Both the position numbers and the translations under genes were made by a program. A DNA stretch of 32,987 nucleotides, taken from Deltaproteobacteria bacterium. Its GTDB lineage: Bacteria > Bdellovibrionota > Bacteriovoracia > Bacteriovoracales > Bacteriovoracaceae. How positions within the stretch are numbered: the stretch's first letter is position 1; every line of letters begins with the position of its first letter. Location of the stretch: contig SBGE01000187.1 in the NCBI GenBank assembly GCA_006226755.1, positions 1-32,987 of the forward strand. Reading direction: 5' to 3'. The notes beneath the pieces were generated by a model. The model did no database searches. It worked only from the letters and a program-made list of their open reading frames with translations, and was not told where the DNA came from. Positions 634 through 16,789 of the stretch are shown one piece after another.

Positions 634-1857
634 ATGAATGAAATCACACTTGGCGTAACGATGTTCACAGTTGTGGTCCTCGCTTTGGTGGTCGTGATCC
701 TTTTCGCGAAATCCAAGCTAGTTCCAACTGGTAACGTTAAGCTTAACATCAACGGTGAAAAAAATGTCGACGTGGCTCCCGGCGGAAAATTGCTGAATGT
801 CCTTGCTGACCAGAAGCTTTTTGTTTCTTCGGCCTGTGGTGGCGGTGGAACTTGTGGACAGTGTAAAGTCAAAGTTCTTGAAGGTGGAGGAGAGATTCTT
901 CAAACAGAACTTGGTCACATCACAAAAAGAGAAGCTCGTGAAGGCGAAAGGCTTTCATGTCAGGTTGCAGTAAAGCAAGACATGAAGATTGAAGTTCCTG
1001 AAGAAGTCTTCGGAGTCAAAAAGTGGAAATGTAAAGTGAGATCAAATCACAACGTCGCCACTTTTATTAAGGAACTTGTGCTTGAGCTTCCTCCTGGAGA
1101 AGAAGTACCTTTCCGAGCTGGTGGTTTTATTCAGATCGAAAGACCTCCTGGGCTTTCTATCGACTATAAGAATTTTGAAGTTGAAGATGAGTATAAAGGT
1201 GACTGGGATCAGTTCAACCTCTGGCAATATAAGTCTGTGGTAAATGAAGAAACAATCAGGGCCTACTCAATGGCAAACTACCCAGAAGAGAAGGGCATCA
1301 TCATGTTGAACGTGAGGATTGCTTCTCCTCCTCCAAGACTTCCAAATGTGGAGCCAGGGAAAATGTCATCTTATATTTTTGACTTGAAGCCTGGAGATGA
1401 GTGTACGATCTCAGGTCCATTTGGTGAGTTCTTTGCCAGAGATACTGAAAAGGAAATGATCTTCATCGGTGGTGGTGCAGGTATGGCGCCTATGAGATCG
1501 CATATTTTCGATCAGCTAAGAAGAATCAAAACCAAGAGAAAAATCTCTTTCTGGTACGGGGCACGTTCGGCCAGAGAAATGTTCTATGTTGAAGACTTTG
1601 ATATGCTTGCCAAAGAAAACGAAAACTTTGAATGGCATTGTGCTCTTTCTGATGCTCTTCCAGAAGATAACTGGACAGGCTATACAGGTTTCATTCACAA
1701 CGTTGTTTATGAAAACTATCTGAAGGATCATCCAAATCCAGAAGATTGTGAATACTACATGTGTGGTCCTCCGATTATGAACCAGTGTGTGATCGATATG
1801 CTTCTAAGCCTTGGGGTTGAAAGAGAAGACATCATGCTGGACGACTTCGGCGGCTAG
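634..1857 (+). CDS. nqrF: Na+-NQR subunit F (NqrF), NADH-oxidising FAD/[2Fe-2S] subunit
   Basis: Entry point of electrons into NQR: it takes hydride from NADH onto FAD and passes electrons through a [2Fe-2S] centre. Its 407 residues equal the family length. An N-terminal membrane helix (about 4-25) is followed by a plant-type ferredoxin domain with ligands C68, C74, C77 and C109. Next come an FAD-binding domain with RAYS at 209-212 and an NADH-binding Rossmann domain with GGGAGMAP at 279-286. The conserved Cys of the CGPP motif is C377 and the C-terminus is the typical DDFGG. All catalytic residues are intact, so this NQR should be functional. It is the last gene before a strong terminator at 1887-1920. 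Confidence 0.97.
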
Positions 1858-12435: not shown

Positions 12436-12522
12436 TGGTGCCCGAGGCCGGACTTGAACCGGCACGACTGTGAGGTCGAGGGATTTTAAATCCCTTGTGT
12501 CTACCGATTTCACCACCCGGGC
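12436..12522 (-). tRNA. tRNA-Leu, anticodon UAA
   Basis: An 87-base class II tRNA with encoded CCA (12438-12436). The acceptor stem GCCCGGG pairs with CTCGGGC with one G-U. The anticodon stem AGGGA/TCCCT encloses loop TTTAAAA, giving anticodon TAA (reads UUA and UUG). A long variable arm (CGAC...GTCG) and a normal T arm (GCCGG, loop TTCAAGT, CCGGC) follow. The long variable arm and anticodon together identify leucine. Confidence 0.98.
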
Positions 12523-12551
12523 CAACAGAATCACTAAGGATGGATTGAATT

Positions 12552-14216
12552 TTGGACTATATCCGGCGCGCTTGTCAATTGAAAACCCTAAAGCTTTTTT
12601 TTGCATGCCTCATTTTGTCGGCCATGGTTTCCTGTTCGTCTAAACCTCCAAAAAAGGATGACCCTGAAGTTGGTGATCCTGGTATCCAGCAAATTGAAGA
12701 GGTTGATAGCAAAAAAGAAGGTTCTACAAAAATTCCTGAGGAAGAAACTATTGAACGTATGTCAGATCTTCCTGTGGTTGAGCCTATTCCACAGTGGTTG
12801 AATGTTGATCGTAGGTTTGCTCCAAGGCAAGAAGAGGGTGACCCCTATATCCACGCTTTTTTTGACTTTCTACCGTTTCCAGAACCAAAAGATCTCAAAA
12901 TAAACTTTGTGGCCTTGACTCCTGCCAAGAGTCGATTCTTTTATGGAATGGATCTTCATTCCGGACAGCTTTATAAAAAGTATAATCTGTGTGAGCAAAA
13001 TGATGTTTGGAAATCTTATAGAGGAACAATATCAACACCTCCATACACGGAAGGTTTTATACCTCGAATTTTGGATCAGCTCGGCGATCCTTTGAAAGTT
13101 GTCGTATTTGGCGATCTTCGGTATTTCCCAAAATTTGACCCACGCAATCCTGTCTCTCAAAGAGTAAAGGTCGTTGGGGGAGTGATTGAGCAGTATTGCG
13201 AGTACTATCCTTGTTCATTCAGAAGTCAGTGGATGTCTCGCTTGGTACTTGTGGCCGTTAACGATAAGGATCCTCGCTTTGAAAAAGTGAACTCTCTTTC
13301 TGACCTTAAAAAATTGGTTAAGTGGGATAAATTTAAGGCCAATATGGAAAATCTTCCAGGGCGTTTGATCAGAGGCCAAGAACAGAAACCGGCCTTTAGA
13401 ATTTCAGGAAGTATTAATGCAGAAGAAGCATTTTCCTATGCTTTGAGCAAAGGGCATCAATTCAAGTTTGATCAATTGGCAAAACTTAGAAATGGTTGTC
13501 ACAAACTTTATGATCATGTCTGGAGAGGGGCCCTTAATCTACGCAAAAACATCCAGCGTGGTCGATCCCGAAGACAATTGAACAAATTAAGATCAGACTC
13601 TCTTATTGTTAATATGAAAAAGAGTATTTTTAAAGATGACGTTAAGAGCATTGAGAAAGTCGAAGAAGAGTTAGAGAAAGATAAGGGACCAGAAGAAGGC
13701 TTCAATGATTTCGATGATTACTTCATGGACTTTTATAATAAATACTCCAAAAGATTTCTCACTTGTCATCGATTTGTAAGAGTTTCAAGTGTGAGGTCCA
13801 ACATCGATCGACATTGGTTCTTTTCCTATCTGACATCTTTTCTTCAGCTCGAAAGAATAGGTTATGTCTATCATTGTCCACGAAGAGCGTGGGTTGAAAA
13901 TCCATTTTTGGCCAGCGGTAATAGACAATTTAATACGACTCAAATGAAAAAAGATTGCACCAGCGAAGATTTGGAAAGGGCCTTCGATGGCTCTGTAACA
14001 ATTATGCAAGGACTTCGAAAGAGCTTGCTTCCTCATTACATGTACAAACAATATGATCACGGAATTGGTGGAACACACCAAAGAATTTATTCCTGGATCT
14101 TTTCAAACGGTAAAATGCCTGCCTGTGATGCTGAACTTAAAAAAATCAACAGAGAAGTGGAGTTTCCAAATGATGTTTCATGGAAGCCATTTCACCCTTA
14201 CACATTGGATCTATGA
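12552..14216 (+). CDS. Large lipoprotein of unknown function, first gene of the Nuo-like cluster
   Basis: I do not recognise this family. Two TTG starts fit. The one at 12552 has AAGGATGG nine bases upstream and gives 554 residues. The one at 12579 gives MKTLKLFFACLILSAMVSC, a cleaner lipoprotein signal, but lacks a ribosome-binding site. Either way the lipidated Cys is Cys28 of the longer form. After an acidic linker comes a soluble region with scattered cysteines, several next to His (GCHKLYDH, TCHRFVR). There are no CxxCH haem motifs and no membrane helix after the signal. A Lys/Glu-rich, probably coiled-coil stretch lies near residues 355-380. The stop overlaps the NuoB-like start as ATGA, so a periplasmic or outer-membrane lipoprotein is translationally coupled to three cytoplasmic-type Nuo subunits. 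This is the main clue to its role and also the main puzzle. Confidence 0.8.
   Translation: MDYIRRACQLKTLKLFFACLILSAMVSCSSKPPKKDDPEVGDPGIQQIEEVDSKKEGSTKIPEEETIERMSDLPVVEPIPQWLNVDRRFAPRQEEGDPYIHAFFDFLPFPEPKDLKINFVALTPAKSRFFYGMDLHSGQLYKKYNLCEQNDVWKSYRGTISTPPYTEGFIPRILDQLGDPLKVVVFGDLRYFPKFDPRNPVSQRVKVVGGVIEQYCEYYPCSFRSQWMSRLVLVAVNDKDPRFEKVNSLSDLKKLVKWDKFKANMENLPGRLIRGQEQKPAFRISGSINAEEAFSYALSKGHQFKFDQLAKLRNGCHKLYDHVWRGALNLRKNIQRGRSRRQLNKLRSDSLIVNMKKSIFKDDVKSIEKVEEELEKDKGPEEGFNDFDDYFMDFYNKYSKRFLTCHRFVRVSSVRSNIDRHWFFSYLTSFLQLERIGYVYHCPRRAWVENPFLASGNRQFNTTQMKKDCTSEDLERAFDGSVTIMQGLRKSLLPHYMYKQYDHGIGGTHQRIYSWIFSNGKMPACDAELKKINREVEFPNDVSWKPFHPYTLDL
12556..12585 (-). promoter_or_regulatory. Possible promoter of tRNA-Leu
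   Basis: On the minus strand TTTTCA (12585-12580) and TATAGT (12561-12556) are 18 bases apart, giving a start near 12549 and a leader of about 27 bases before the tRNA. A TTGACA lies nearby (12578-12573) but is only 11 bases from the -10. The site overlaps the start of the lipoprotein gene on the other strand. Confidence 0.35.
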
Positions 14217-14716
14217 GAAGTAATTTTGAATTGGAAAATCACGTTACTTTGACAAGTGCTACTACCTTTATGGAGAGGCTAGGGCGATGGTCTCAATCCA
14301 AATTAATCTGGCCAATGATTTTTGGAAGTGGATTTTCAGAAGTTGAATTCAGAAATCTATACGGACCTAGATATAATGTCGAAAAATTTGGTCTTGAAGG
14401 AATCAAGTATTCTCCAGGCCAAGCTGATCTTTTGATTGTAACTGGAGTCGTGACTCACAAGTCCTTTGTCGTTTTGGAAAAACTTTATCAGAACATGTGT
14501 TCTCCAAAATGGGTGATAGCACTTGGTACTGAAGCTATTTCCGGTGGATTGTTTCAAAACTATACTCACAAGTCCGATTGGATGAAACATATTCCTGTTG
14601 ATGTCATGGTTCCTGGTGACCCACCAACTCCTGAAGCTATATTGCGTTCACTGGAGATGTTGATAGAGAGAATTGATCTTGGTGTTCGTTCCGAAAGGGA
14701 GAACATAGATGTTTGA
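14213..14716 (+). CDS. NuoB-like protein lacking all N2 cluster ligands
   Basis: Homologue of the NuoB/PSST subunit of complex I, the small-subunit fold that normally holds the terminal [4Fe-4S] cluster N2 and hands electrons to quinone. The start at 14213 (ATGA overlap with the lipoprotein stop) is preferred over the ATG at 14180 and gives 167 residues, normal length. Family blocks are clear: WPMIFG, RYNVEKFG, SPGQADLLIVTG, PKWVIALG and IPVDVMVPGDPPTPEA. Every N2 ligand is gone. The Cys-Cys pair of FGLACC is Phe41-Ser42, the MGAC Cys is Glu107, and the PGCPP Cys is Asp136. The fold appears kept without the cluster. It overlaps the NuoCD-like gene by eight bases, with AAGGGAGA ahead of that start. 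The protein is unlikely to transfer electrons to quinone; a structural or regulatory role is possible. Confidence 0.9.
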   Translation: MRSNFELENHVTLTSATTFMERLGRWSQSKLIWPMIFGSGFSEVEFRNLYGPRYNVEKFGLEGIKYSPGQADLLIVTGVVTHKSFVVLEKLYQNMCSPKWVIALGTEAISGGLFQNYTHKSDWMKHIPVDVMVPGDPPTPEAILRSLEMLIERIDLGVRSERENIDV

Positions 14717-16295
14717 TTTTTATGATCAATTGAAACAGGAGTTTGGAGAGAATCTTAAGAAAAAAGATTCTTTCTTGGAAATGAAACTGGAAGCAGTTCA
14801 TTTTCATCAGCTGGCTTCTCAATTGAAAAATAAATTTGGTTTTATTTTTCTTTCAGATATCTGTGGAGTTGATAATAAAGGCGACTCTAAAAAAGAGAAG
14901 CGTTTTACCATTATTTATCACCTCTTAAATCTTGAAGAATATTGCCATTTGAGAATTTCAATCGATATTGATGAAGAAACAAAGCTTTCTTCTGTAGGGG
15001 CCACCTGGCCATCTTCAAAGAGATTAGAGTTGGAGCTTCGAGACTTATTGGGAATTTTGTTTGATACTGAATTAGGCGCAGGCTTTTTGAATCCATCTGA
15101 CTATGGCGGATTTCCTCTTCGAAAAGATTTCACTCCAAATGTAAATGGTCCTGTTTCCATCCTCTCAACCAGTTTTCCTGACGATCCCTCAATTGATGCT
15201 GATCAAAGAGGAGTACGCTCTTGGGTGAACATTGGTCCCCATCATCCTGTCATGAAAAATAATGTAAGGATGATTTTGGAGCTTGAAGGTGAATACATCA
15301 GACGTTGTCAGTATGAAACGGGTTTTCATCATCGAGGATTCGAAAAGCAAGCTGAGAAATTGCCTTGGCCGACTCTCATCACCTTGATTGAAAGATTGAA
15401 TTCGCAAGCTCCTTTCATGTGTACTTCTACCTGGTGCCATTTGATTGAAAATTCACTCAAACTTCAAATACCAGAGAGAGCGATGGCCATTCGTATGGTA
15501 TTTATCGAGCTTACAAGAATTCAGGATCATCTTGAGTGTATCGCTTCATGTGCAGTTGCCGCTGGAAACGAATCTGTTTATTTTATATGCCAACAGGGAC
15601 GAGAACTCGTCTACGAACTCTTTGAGAGAATGAGTGGCTCAAGACTTAACCCGGCTTTGAATTGTATCGGTGGAGTCAAATACGATATTCCAATTGGTTG
15701 GATTACAGATTGCTTTGAAGCTTTGAAGAAAATGGATGACCTTCTCACCCATATAGAAACTCTATTCACACGATCTTCAATTTGGCTGGATCGAAATATG
15801 GTTTCAGAAATTAATGCTGGTCGAGCATTGGATTTAGGGATCACTGGTCCTGTTCTTCGAAGTTGTGGCGTTAATTACGATCTTCGGAAAGTGAATCCGA
15901 TTTATTTCTATTCTGATGTAGAGTTTGAAATCCCTCTTGGAGTCAGAGGGGAGAACTATGATCGATATCTTGTGAGAATGGAAGAAATTAGACAGAGTAT
16001 TTCAATTGTCATACAGGTTCTTGATAATCTTCCAATTGGTGAAGTTTCTAAGATTGTTGAAAATCAAATACCACCAGCTGGGATCCATTACAGCAGCCTT
16101 GAGTCTTCTAATGGAGAATTAGGCTTTACTGTTGTTTCAGATGGAGAGTCTGATTTTCCTTGGCGTTTAAAAGTAAGATCTCCCAGTTTTATGAATATCA
16201 TTGCCCTTCCTGAAATGATTCAAAACAGACTTCTAGATGATGCCTTAATGTCATTCAGCAGTTTGAATATTAATCCAGGAGAGCTTGATCGATGA
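14709..16295 (+). CDS. NuoCD-like fusion with a changed quinone site
   Basis: Fusion of complex I subunits NuoC (about 1-145) and NuoD (about 165-528), 528 residues, the arrangement seen in E. coli NuoCD. The NuoC part has the E-x-E-x-x-D-L-x-G-I pattern (ELELRDLLGI) and ends PLRKDF, but lacks HPDLR. The NuoD part has GPHHP (176-180), HHRGFEK, VPERA-like IPERA, ELTRIQDHL, ERMSGSRL, GGV and a C-terminal GELDR. Aligned without gaps to NuoD consensus, the quinone-site His, Tyr and Asp (Thermus H38, Y87 and D139) are Lys183, Ser232 and Ala284. NiFe-hydrogenase cysteines are also absent, so it is neither a normal NuoD nor a hydrogenase. The stop overlaps the NuoI-like start as ATGA. No membrane (NuoA/H/J-N) or NADH-module (NuoE/F/G) genes follow. 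Confidence 0.9.
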   Translation: MFDFYDQLKQEFGENLKKKDSFLEMKLEAVHFHQLASQLKNKFGFIFLSDICGVDNKGDSKKEKRFTIIYHLLNLEEYCHLRISIDIDEETKLSSVGATWPSSKRLELELRDLLGILFDTELGAGFLNPSDYGGFPLRKDFTPNVNGPVSILSTSFPDDPSIDADQRGVRSWVNIGPHHPVMKNNVRMILELEGEYIRRCQYETGFHHRGFEKQAEKLPWPTLITLIERLNSQAPFMCTSTWCHLIENSLKLQIPERAMAIRMVFIELTRIQDHLECIASCAVAAGNESVYFICQQGRELVYELFERMSGSRLNPALNCIGGVKYDIPIGWITDCFEALKKMDDLLTHIETLFTRSSIWLDRNMVSEINAGRALDLGITGPVLRSCGVNYDLRKVNPIYFYSDVEFEIPLGVRGENYDRYLVRMEEIRQSISIVIQVLDNLPIGEVSKIVENQIPPAGIHYSSLESSNGELGFTVVSDGESDFPWRLKVRSPSFMNIIALPEMIQNRLLDDALMSFSSLNINPGELDR

Positions 16296-16789
16296 TCCTT
16301 AAAAACGAATACTATAAGGCCAAATCGCTTACTCTCGGGGTGATGAAAAGTTTTCTCTCCATGAGTTATAATGTGATCAGACGACTATATGGTGCTGAAA
16401 AAATAACAACAATCAATTATCCAATTGAAAGTTATCTTTACTCAAAAAACCAGATGGGATTGCCGCGCTTGGTGCTTGATAAGAAAGGAAGAAGTCTGTG
16501 CACGAGCTGTGATGCCTGCCAGAAAGTTTGTCCTACCAATGCTTTGGATATTTCAGGAAAAGAAGGACAAGAGCCGGAAGTCTTCAATCTTGATGTTGGA
16601 AAATGTATTTTTTGCGGCTGGTGTGCTGATGTCTGTGCGGATAAAGCAATTGAGATGAGTGATGAGCATATTATTGCTGCTCATGCTGAAGAATCTTTGA
16701 TTTTTAGTTTTAATGAATTGAAGTCAAAGGGTCGACGTCCAAACCCCGAAATAAAAAATCAGGTGAATAGTGAAGGAATGGAAGGCTGA
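16292..16789 (+). CDS. NuoI-like 2x[4Fe-4S] ferredoxin subunit
   Basis: Ferredoxin-type protein of 165 residues related to NuoI/TYKY. Two cluster motifs are complete: C70-x2-C73-x2-C76-x3-C80-P and C105-x2-C108-x2-C111-x3-C115, with IFCGWC matching the family. The second motif ends C-A instead of the usual C-P. The N-terminal 55 residues contain the amphipathic helix (VMKSFLSMSYNVIRRLYG) by which NuoI lies along the membrane domain. In complex I these clusters (N6a, N6b) feed N2; here the partner NuoB has no N2. It is the last gene of the cluster, coupled by ATGA, and its end overlaps convergent aat by 31 bases. Confidence 0.92.
   Translation: MILKNEYYKAKSLTLGVMKSFLSMSYNVIRRLYGAEKITTINYPIESYLYSKNQMGLPRLVLDKKGRSLCTSCDACQKVCPTNALDISGKEGQEPEVFNLDVGKCIFCGWCADVCADKAIEMSDEHIIAAHAEESLIFSFNELKSKGRRPNPEIKNQVNSEGMEG

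Follow-up and report, generated by a model that had tools for sequence, protein, structure and literature searches.

In a 32,987-nt stretch of Bacteriovoracaceae DNA (the window), four overlapping genes encode a lipoprotein and homologs of the complex I subunits NuoB, NuoCD and NuoI (here NuoB2, NuoCD2 and NuoI2), and on balance we read this cluster as the probable peripheral arm of a second, redox-dead "pseudo-complex I" that would serve as a non-redox platform around the lipoprotein. The parts of this reading differ in strength: that the genes belong to a second, catalytically disabled complex I is very likely, that these type-2 genes are kept by selection for a non-redox role is likely, and that the role is specifically that of a platform for the lipoprotein is a tentative proposal.

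The overlaps of 4, 8 and 4 bases given in the preliminary description were borne out once NuoB2 was taken from its ATG, the position at which the proteins of congeners begin. Comparison with Pfam/NCBIfam assigned NuoB2 to Oxidored_q6 (4e-17), NuoCD2 to Complex1_49kDa (9e-70) plus Complex1_30kDa (4e-21), and NuoI2 to the NuoI-type 2x[4Fe-4S] family; no nuo gene beyond these three was recognised in the window. The start of the cluster, initially placed at 12552, was corrected to TTG 12579, because a presumed promoter of the divergent tRNA-Leu gene (TTGACA, spacer, TATAGT on the reverse complement; ~12546-12590) overlaps the 5′ end of the ORF, with 12552-12578 running into it. Read from the TTG, the protein begins with MKTLKLFFACLILSAMVSC, a normal lipoprotein signal with the lipobox MVS-C. 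The same overlap (12436-12590) probably explains a conserved N-terminal "NYxxxxCQLK" read in many relatives. At the start of the window, an NqrF-like gene and a gene for an ApbE flavin transferase (634-2980) probably form the end of an nqr operon; of the nearby NQR operon described earlier, these two genes lie in the window and an NQR2-family gene sits on another contig.

Table 1 Features of the type-2 system and its neighbours (positions without a prefix refer to the window).
Feature	Position	Strand	Remark
NqrF-like oxidoreductase gene	634-1857		NqrF-like; in window
tRNA-Leu(taa)	12436..12522	-	Divergent neighbour, outside the system
Lipoprotein gene	12579..14216	+	Likely start TTG 12579; ORF open from 12552
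NuoB2	14213..14716	+	NuoB homologue; ORF open from 14180; start ATG 14213
NuoCD2	14709..16295	+	Fused NuoC-NuoD homologue
NuoI2	16292..16789	+	NuoI homologue
Degenerate membrane arm A2-H2-J2-K2-L2-M2-N2	G000:C295:7719-13968		Directly downstream of canonical nuoN
TPR protein of >1,000 residues	L194:4576-7698; L187:10699-13992; L188:3532-6807; L189:11681-14905		Neighbour, possibly partner

Inspection of the catalytic positions refined the earlier statement that active-site residues are gone: it holds for NuoB, which lacks its N2 ligands, and for NuoD, which lacks its quinone-site residues, but not for NuoI2, in which both [4Fe-4S] motifs are intact and all eight cluster cysteines are present. 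The four N2 cysteines of NuoB2 are replaced by F, S, E and D. In NuoCD2, the quinone-site triad H, H, Y has become H, K, S, the second His of the HPATH motif having changed to K and the quinone-site Tyr to S, and the segments GPxLR...PLG...YDRxLVR...QVLDxLP, GELG and ExDR are kept.

The window genome (G000; 3.85 Mb, 309 contigs) also carries a canonical, or type-1, complex I, with a nuoB-C-D-I set at the end of one contig (C267) and a nuoA-H-J-K-L-M-N operon on another (C295). Immediately behind the canonical nuoN lies a degenerate membrane arm comprising counterparts of all seven subunits (Table 1). Hence, the reported lack of membrane subunits is true of the locus but not of the genome, and an "orphan" Q module was ruled out. 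A complete second nuo set with restored ligands was likewise rejected: the missing genes do lie elsewhere, but with proton-path residues lost rather than restored. The canonical complex (L011, L010; G000:C267, C295) apparently is without NuoEFG as well, as no PF01512 match was found for it in several near-complete genomes including G004; the sole PF01512 match in G000 is a 589-aa ORF on C164.

Profile-profile comparison matched A2, H2, J2, K2 and N2 of the window genus to the corresponding intact subunits (probability 94-100) and L2, reached via intermediates, at a probability of 68. Direct profile matches to canonical L and M were found for neither L2 nor M2, and M2, which had no match even with intermediates, was assigned by position, length and hydrophobicity alone. 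Downstream of A2, H2, J2 and K2, the L2, M2 and N2 positions in G000 hold proteins of 538, 387 and 448 residues, of which L2 and M2 diverge very rapidly, congeners sharing 27-28% identity. An AlphaFold model of M2 was set aside (mean pLDDT 57, from an alignment that contained intact NuoM). The acidic loop glutamates of NuoH2 and E36/E72 of NuoK2 are lost in the window genome, and most antiporter Lys/Glu residues are not conserved there, with N2 keeping some Lys and the alignment positions of L2 and M2 being uncertain; the proton-path residues are intact in G016, G033 and G030, as far as the contigs reach, and in the outgroups. In nearly every family genome in which the locus was read long enough, a second module in the same order follows the canonical nuoN (the contigs of G033, G030 and G010 end early); in those genomes that are most degenerate, the set is read from gene order and length, with the small A2 and K2 below the ORF cut-off. 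That B2-CD2-I2 together with A2-N2 would make up an 11-subunit complex I paralogue is well supported. In the genomes checked, a protein with TPR repeats and a GxIVGPF-type N-terminus lies after the last nuoN-like gene, even where the dead module is absent.

The carriers belong to the Bacteriovoracaceae and relatives (Halobacteriovorax and Bacteriovorax among the named records) and include a genome taken as that of cultured Halobacteriovorax marinus SJ (G004), whose type-2 genes lie near 2,271,903-2,275,994 and 35,774-41,063 of the chromosome. When relatives were searched for the same four-gene order, as the preliminary description had proposed, lipoprotein, B, CD and I were all present and in this order at 77 of 97 family loci; the cluster is therefore not a product of chance. 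Across the 97 loci surveyed, the quinone-site triad is kept in nine and lost in 81, and 43 lack the N2 cysteines. In basal genera the 14-subunit version is still intact: intact orthologous complex I with NuoEFG occurs in members of other families in this phylum (G055, G041, G049) as well as in the basal genus g15 and in G033, G030 has an intact set where readable, and the lipoprotein already heads the operon in the intact g15, G016 and G033. The absence of NuoEFG noted at the outset accordingly stands for the window locus only, relatives carrying these genes, intact or decaying, between CD and I. Weak EFG remnants occur in G007, G141, G029 and a few others; G007 and G141 encode degenerate NuoE, NuoF and NuoG between CD and I, and G029 encodes F and G there (L044:11681-14492, L113, L054). 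To judge by their sequences, the remnants in these three genomes are decaying NADH modules caught before loss. The family thus forms a graded series, from intact, through loss of the quinone site, EFG and N2, to CD plus lipoprotein or lipoprotein alone. In a tree of 93 rows, inferred by a quick method with the quinone-site columns blanked and with SH-aLRT support only, the quinone-site state changes once, the intact group standing beyond a branch with 99% SH-aLRT, and the N2 state changes at least six times, with the window genus representing a separate N2 loss. Two further arrangements were seen. G078 has two lipoprotein-B-CD-I copies on different contigs (L148, L149), possibly from mixed genomes given its contamination of 9%, and some genera encode a third complex I in which NuoC and NuoD are separate proteins (L195:3311-17040 in G136, L069 in G036), complete with NuoEFG in G136.

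A graded series is also what one would see if type-2 were redundant and its genes, a relic without function, were slowly being lost piece by piece. Their rate of change fits such decay: Nei-Gojobori dN was 0.22-0.88 for type-2 genes versus 0.05-0.13 for type-1 membrane genes, i.e., two- to over tenfold above canonical subunits, with dS saturated. Because of this saturation and of unstable ML and YN00 estimates, we turned to codon-position divergence and to the expected number of stop codons. When the window genome is compared with its sister, the lipoprotein, B2 and CD2 differ by 0.15-0.21 at second codon positions, as opposed to 0.53-0.61 at third positions. Neutral simulation over 3,360 codons predicted ~100-165 stops, yet neither stops nor frameshifts were present in the 10 type-2 genes at saturated third positions. 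Among 38 divergent dead CD2 sequences, the HPATH and Tyr regions are now variable, and many columns remain near-invariant (GPxLRAxGxNxDxRKxxPxYFYxDxxFxxPLG...YDRxLVRxEExxQS...QVLDxLP, GELG, ExDR). Overall, constraint is relaxed but real, and aimed at something other than quinone chemistry. Moreover, CD is still held at the 81 loci that have lost the quinone site, and dN within the type-2 set is lowest for the lipoprotein. Decay without function is therefore unlikely. Of the two signs initially named as speaking against a retained role, relaxed selection was found, relative to canonical subunits, and frameshifts were not. The proposal that complex I parts have been kept for another job together with the lipoprotein is supported by open frames at saturated divergence, the conserved order and CD2 conservation away from the quinone site.

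Pseudoenzymes often pair with or tune their active relatives, and the dead paralogue might accordingly act as a regulatory partner of the active type-1 complex. With the dead membrane arm placed immediately behind type-1 nuoN, co-expression of the two is probable. However, five genomes that are 95-99% complete (G011, G024, G078, G080 and G106) contain no NuoD other than the degenerate one, and G024 and G106 hold the dead membrane module without a type-1 module. This argues that the dead complex is probably no regulator of the canonical one, and a regulatory partnership is distinctly unlikely. Type-1 also occurs without type-2: genus g33 (G034, G107, G109) has kept the former and lacks both the lipoprotein and type-2 NuoD, which means that the system is dispensable. 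A degenerate H2 was not found in G136, though lipoprotein, B, CD and I are present, so the Q module may sometimes occur without a membrane arm.

What a purely structural role does not account for is NuoI2, whose eight cluster cysteines, unneeded for it, are kept in the window and at 52 of 78 loci in all. Together with the N2 cysteines, which persist at 32 loci that have lost the quinone site, this would fit a redox enzyme of altered chemistry, its NuoI2 clusters passing electrons between an unnamed donor and acceptor without N2 or quinone. We regard this as very unlikely, as the window genus has no donor module, N2 or quinone site and the NuoI clusters are partly lost in genus g25 and others. 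For the same reason, with NADH module, N2 and quinone site all gone, the "electron sink" suggested at first is unlikely in the window genus.

The lipoprotein itself consists of an N-terminal pyrophosphatase-like domain and a C-terminal helical domain, with many conserved Cys. Pfam/NCBIfam returned a faint pyrophosphatase match, and a structural model (pLDDT 84.5) placed the first domain close to family I inorganic pyrophosphatases (TM ~0.7-0.78 on target), the best solved-structure matches listed all being inorganic pyrophosphatases. The catalytic Asp motif DGDPxD is replaced by LGxPxK/Q and the aligned catalytic aspartates are lost, and the domain is predicted to be catalytically inactive. 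Invariant cysteines, of which there are many, suggest disulfides outside the cytoplasm. The protein is nearly confined to Bacteriovoracaceae, where it is present in ~110 of ~130 genomes; short paralogues covering mainly its pyrophosphatase-like domain exist as well (G033:C108:42-698; G010:C89:1452-2081; L179 in G309).

In G008, G032 and others, the lipoprotein persists without B, CD and I, the aat neighbour directly following it in the former two (L129, L141), and can thus do without the complex. Across the family, the lipoprotein is retained longest and CD next longest, ahead of B and I, and EFG went early; this order suggests that the lipoprotein is at the centre of the remaining function. 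Its solitary occurrence and its conservation, the strongest of the set, could even mean that the lipoprotein alone matters, acting outside the inner membrane, with the complex I genes either travelling along as a dispensable passenger or aiding assembly. This is rather unlikely given that B, CD and I are kept in most genomes, with conserved CD2 residues, and that most read genomes holding them have the membrane module.

We therefore return to the non-redox platform as the preferred reading. The type-2 set descends from a functional 14-subunit complex I in which NuoC and NuoD were already fused. Its quinone site was lost once, in an ancestor of most of the family; NuoEFG decayed, and the proton-path residues went next, as did the N2 cluster, separately in several lineages, the genes staying open throughout. 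The type-2 proteins may still assemble into a membrane-spanning, non-redox structural platform, which may position or anchor the co-encoded lipoprotein, a putatively inactive pyrophosphatase-fold protein outside the inner membrane. In its widest form, a possibility we put somewhat short of probable, an entire respiratory complex would have turned pseudoenzyme: 11 subunits spanning the membrane, devoid of N2, quinone chemistry and proton pumping, kept across tens of genera, and forming a structural or signalling platform that links the cytoplasm and inner membrane to a pseudo-pyrophosphatase lipoprotein in predatory bacteria. Single-protein pseudoenzymes are familiar; for a large multi-subunit energy converter, we are aware of no report in which the chemistry was lost and the subunits were retained. 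Here, a family of predatory bacteria seems to have retained machinery for energy conversion to serve some other purpose. The family, with intact, dead and almost vanished versions, provides a natural series that shows the order in which complex I parts are lost and which of its residues serve assembly rather than catalysis. It also suggests that Halobacteriovorax and its relatives have an envelope system not yet described.

A description of such a system, including in Bdellovibrio-like organisms, was not found in the literature, and each known relative differs from it. The family I soluble inorganic pyrophosphatases have a fold in common with the first domain of the lipoprotein, which in contrast is secreted and lipid-anchored, has a large extra helical domain and has lost the catalytic aspartates. 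Group 4 [NiFe] hydrogenases (Ech, Mbh, Hyc) possess homologous small, large and ferredoxin-like subunits; the nickel ligands RxCGxC and DPCxxC are absent from the CD2 sequence, whose C-terminus reads GELDR as in NuoD. The 11-subunit complex I (e.g., of Desulfitobacterium hafniense, PMC11238625) has the same subunit set, again with no NADH module. For those enzymes, energy coupling has been described, and their Q module is considered to function as it does in complex I (PMC11238625). The present system, by contrast, has lost N2, the quinone site and the proton path, its NuoC is fused to NuoD, its genes are split between two loci and it includes an additional lipoprotein. Finally, the 14-subunit complex I with fused NuoCD of basal genera and other families (G016, G033, G055, G041) is the direct orthologue, its operon headed by the lipoprotein in G016 and G033; unlike the window cluster, it has intact catalytic residues and NuoEFG.
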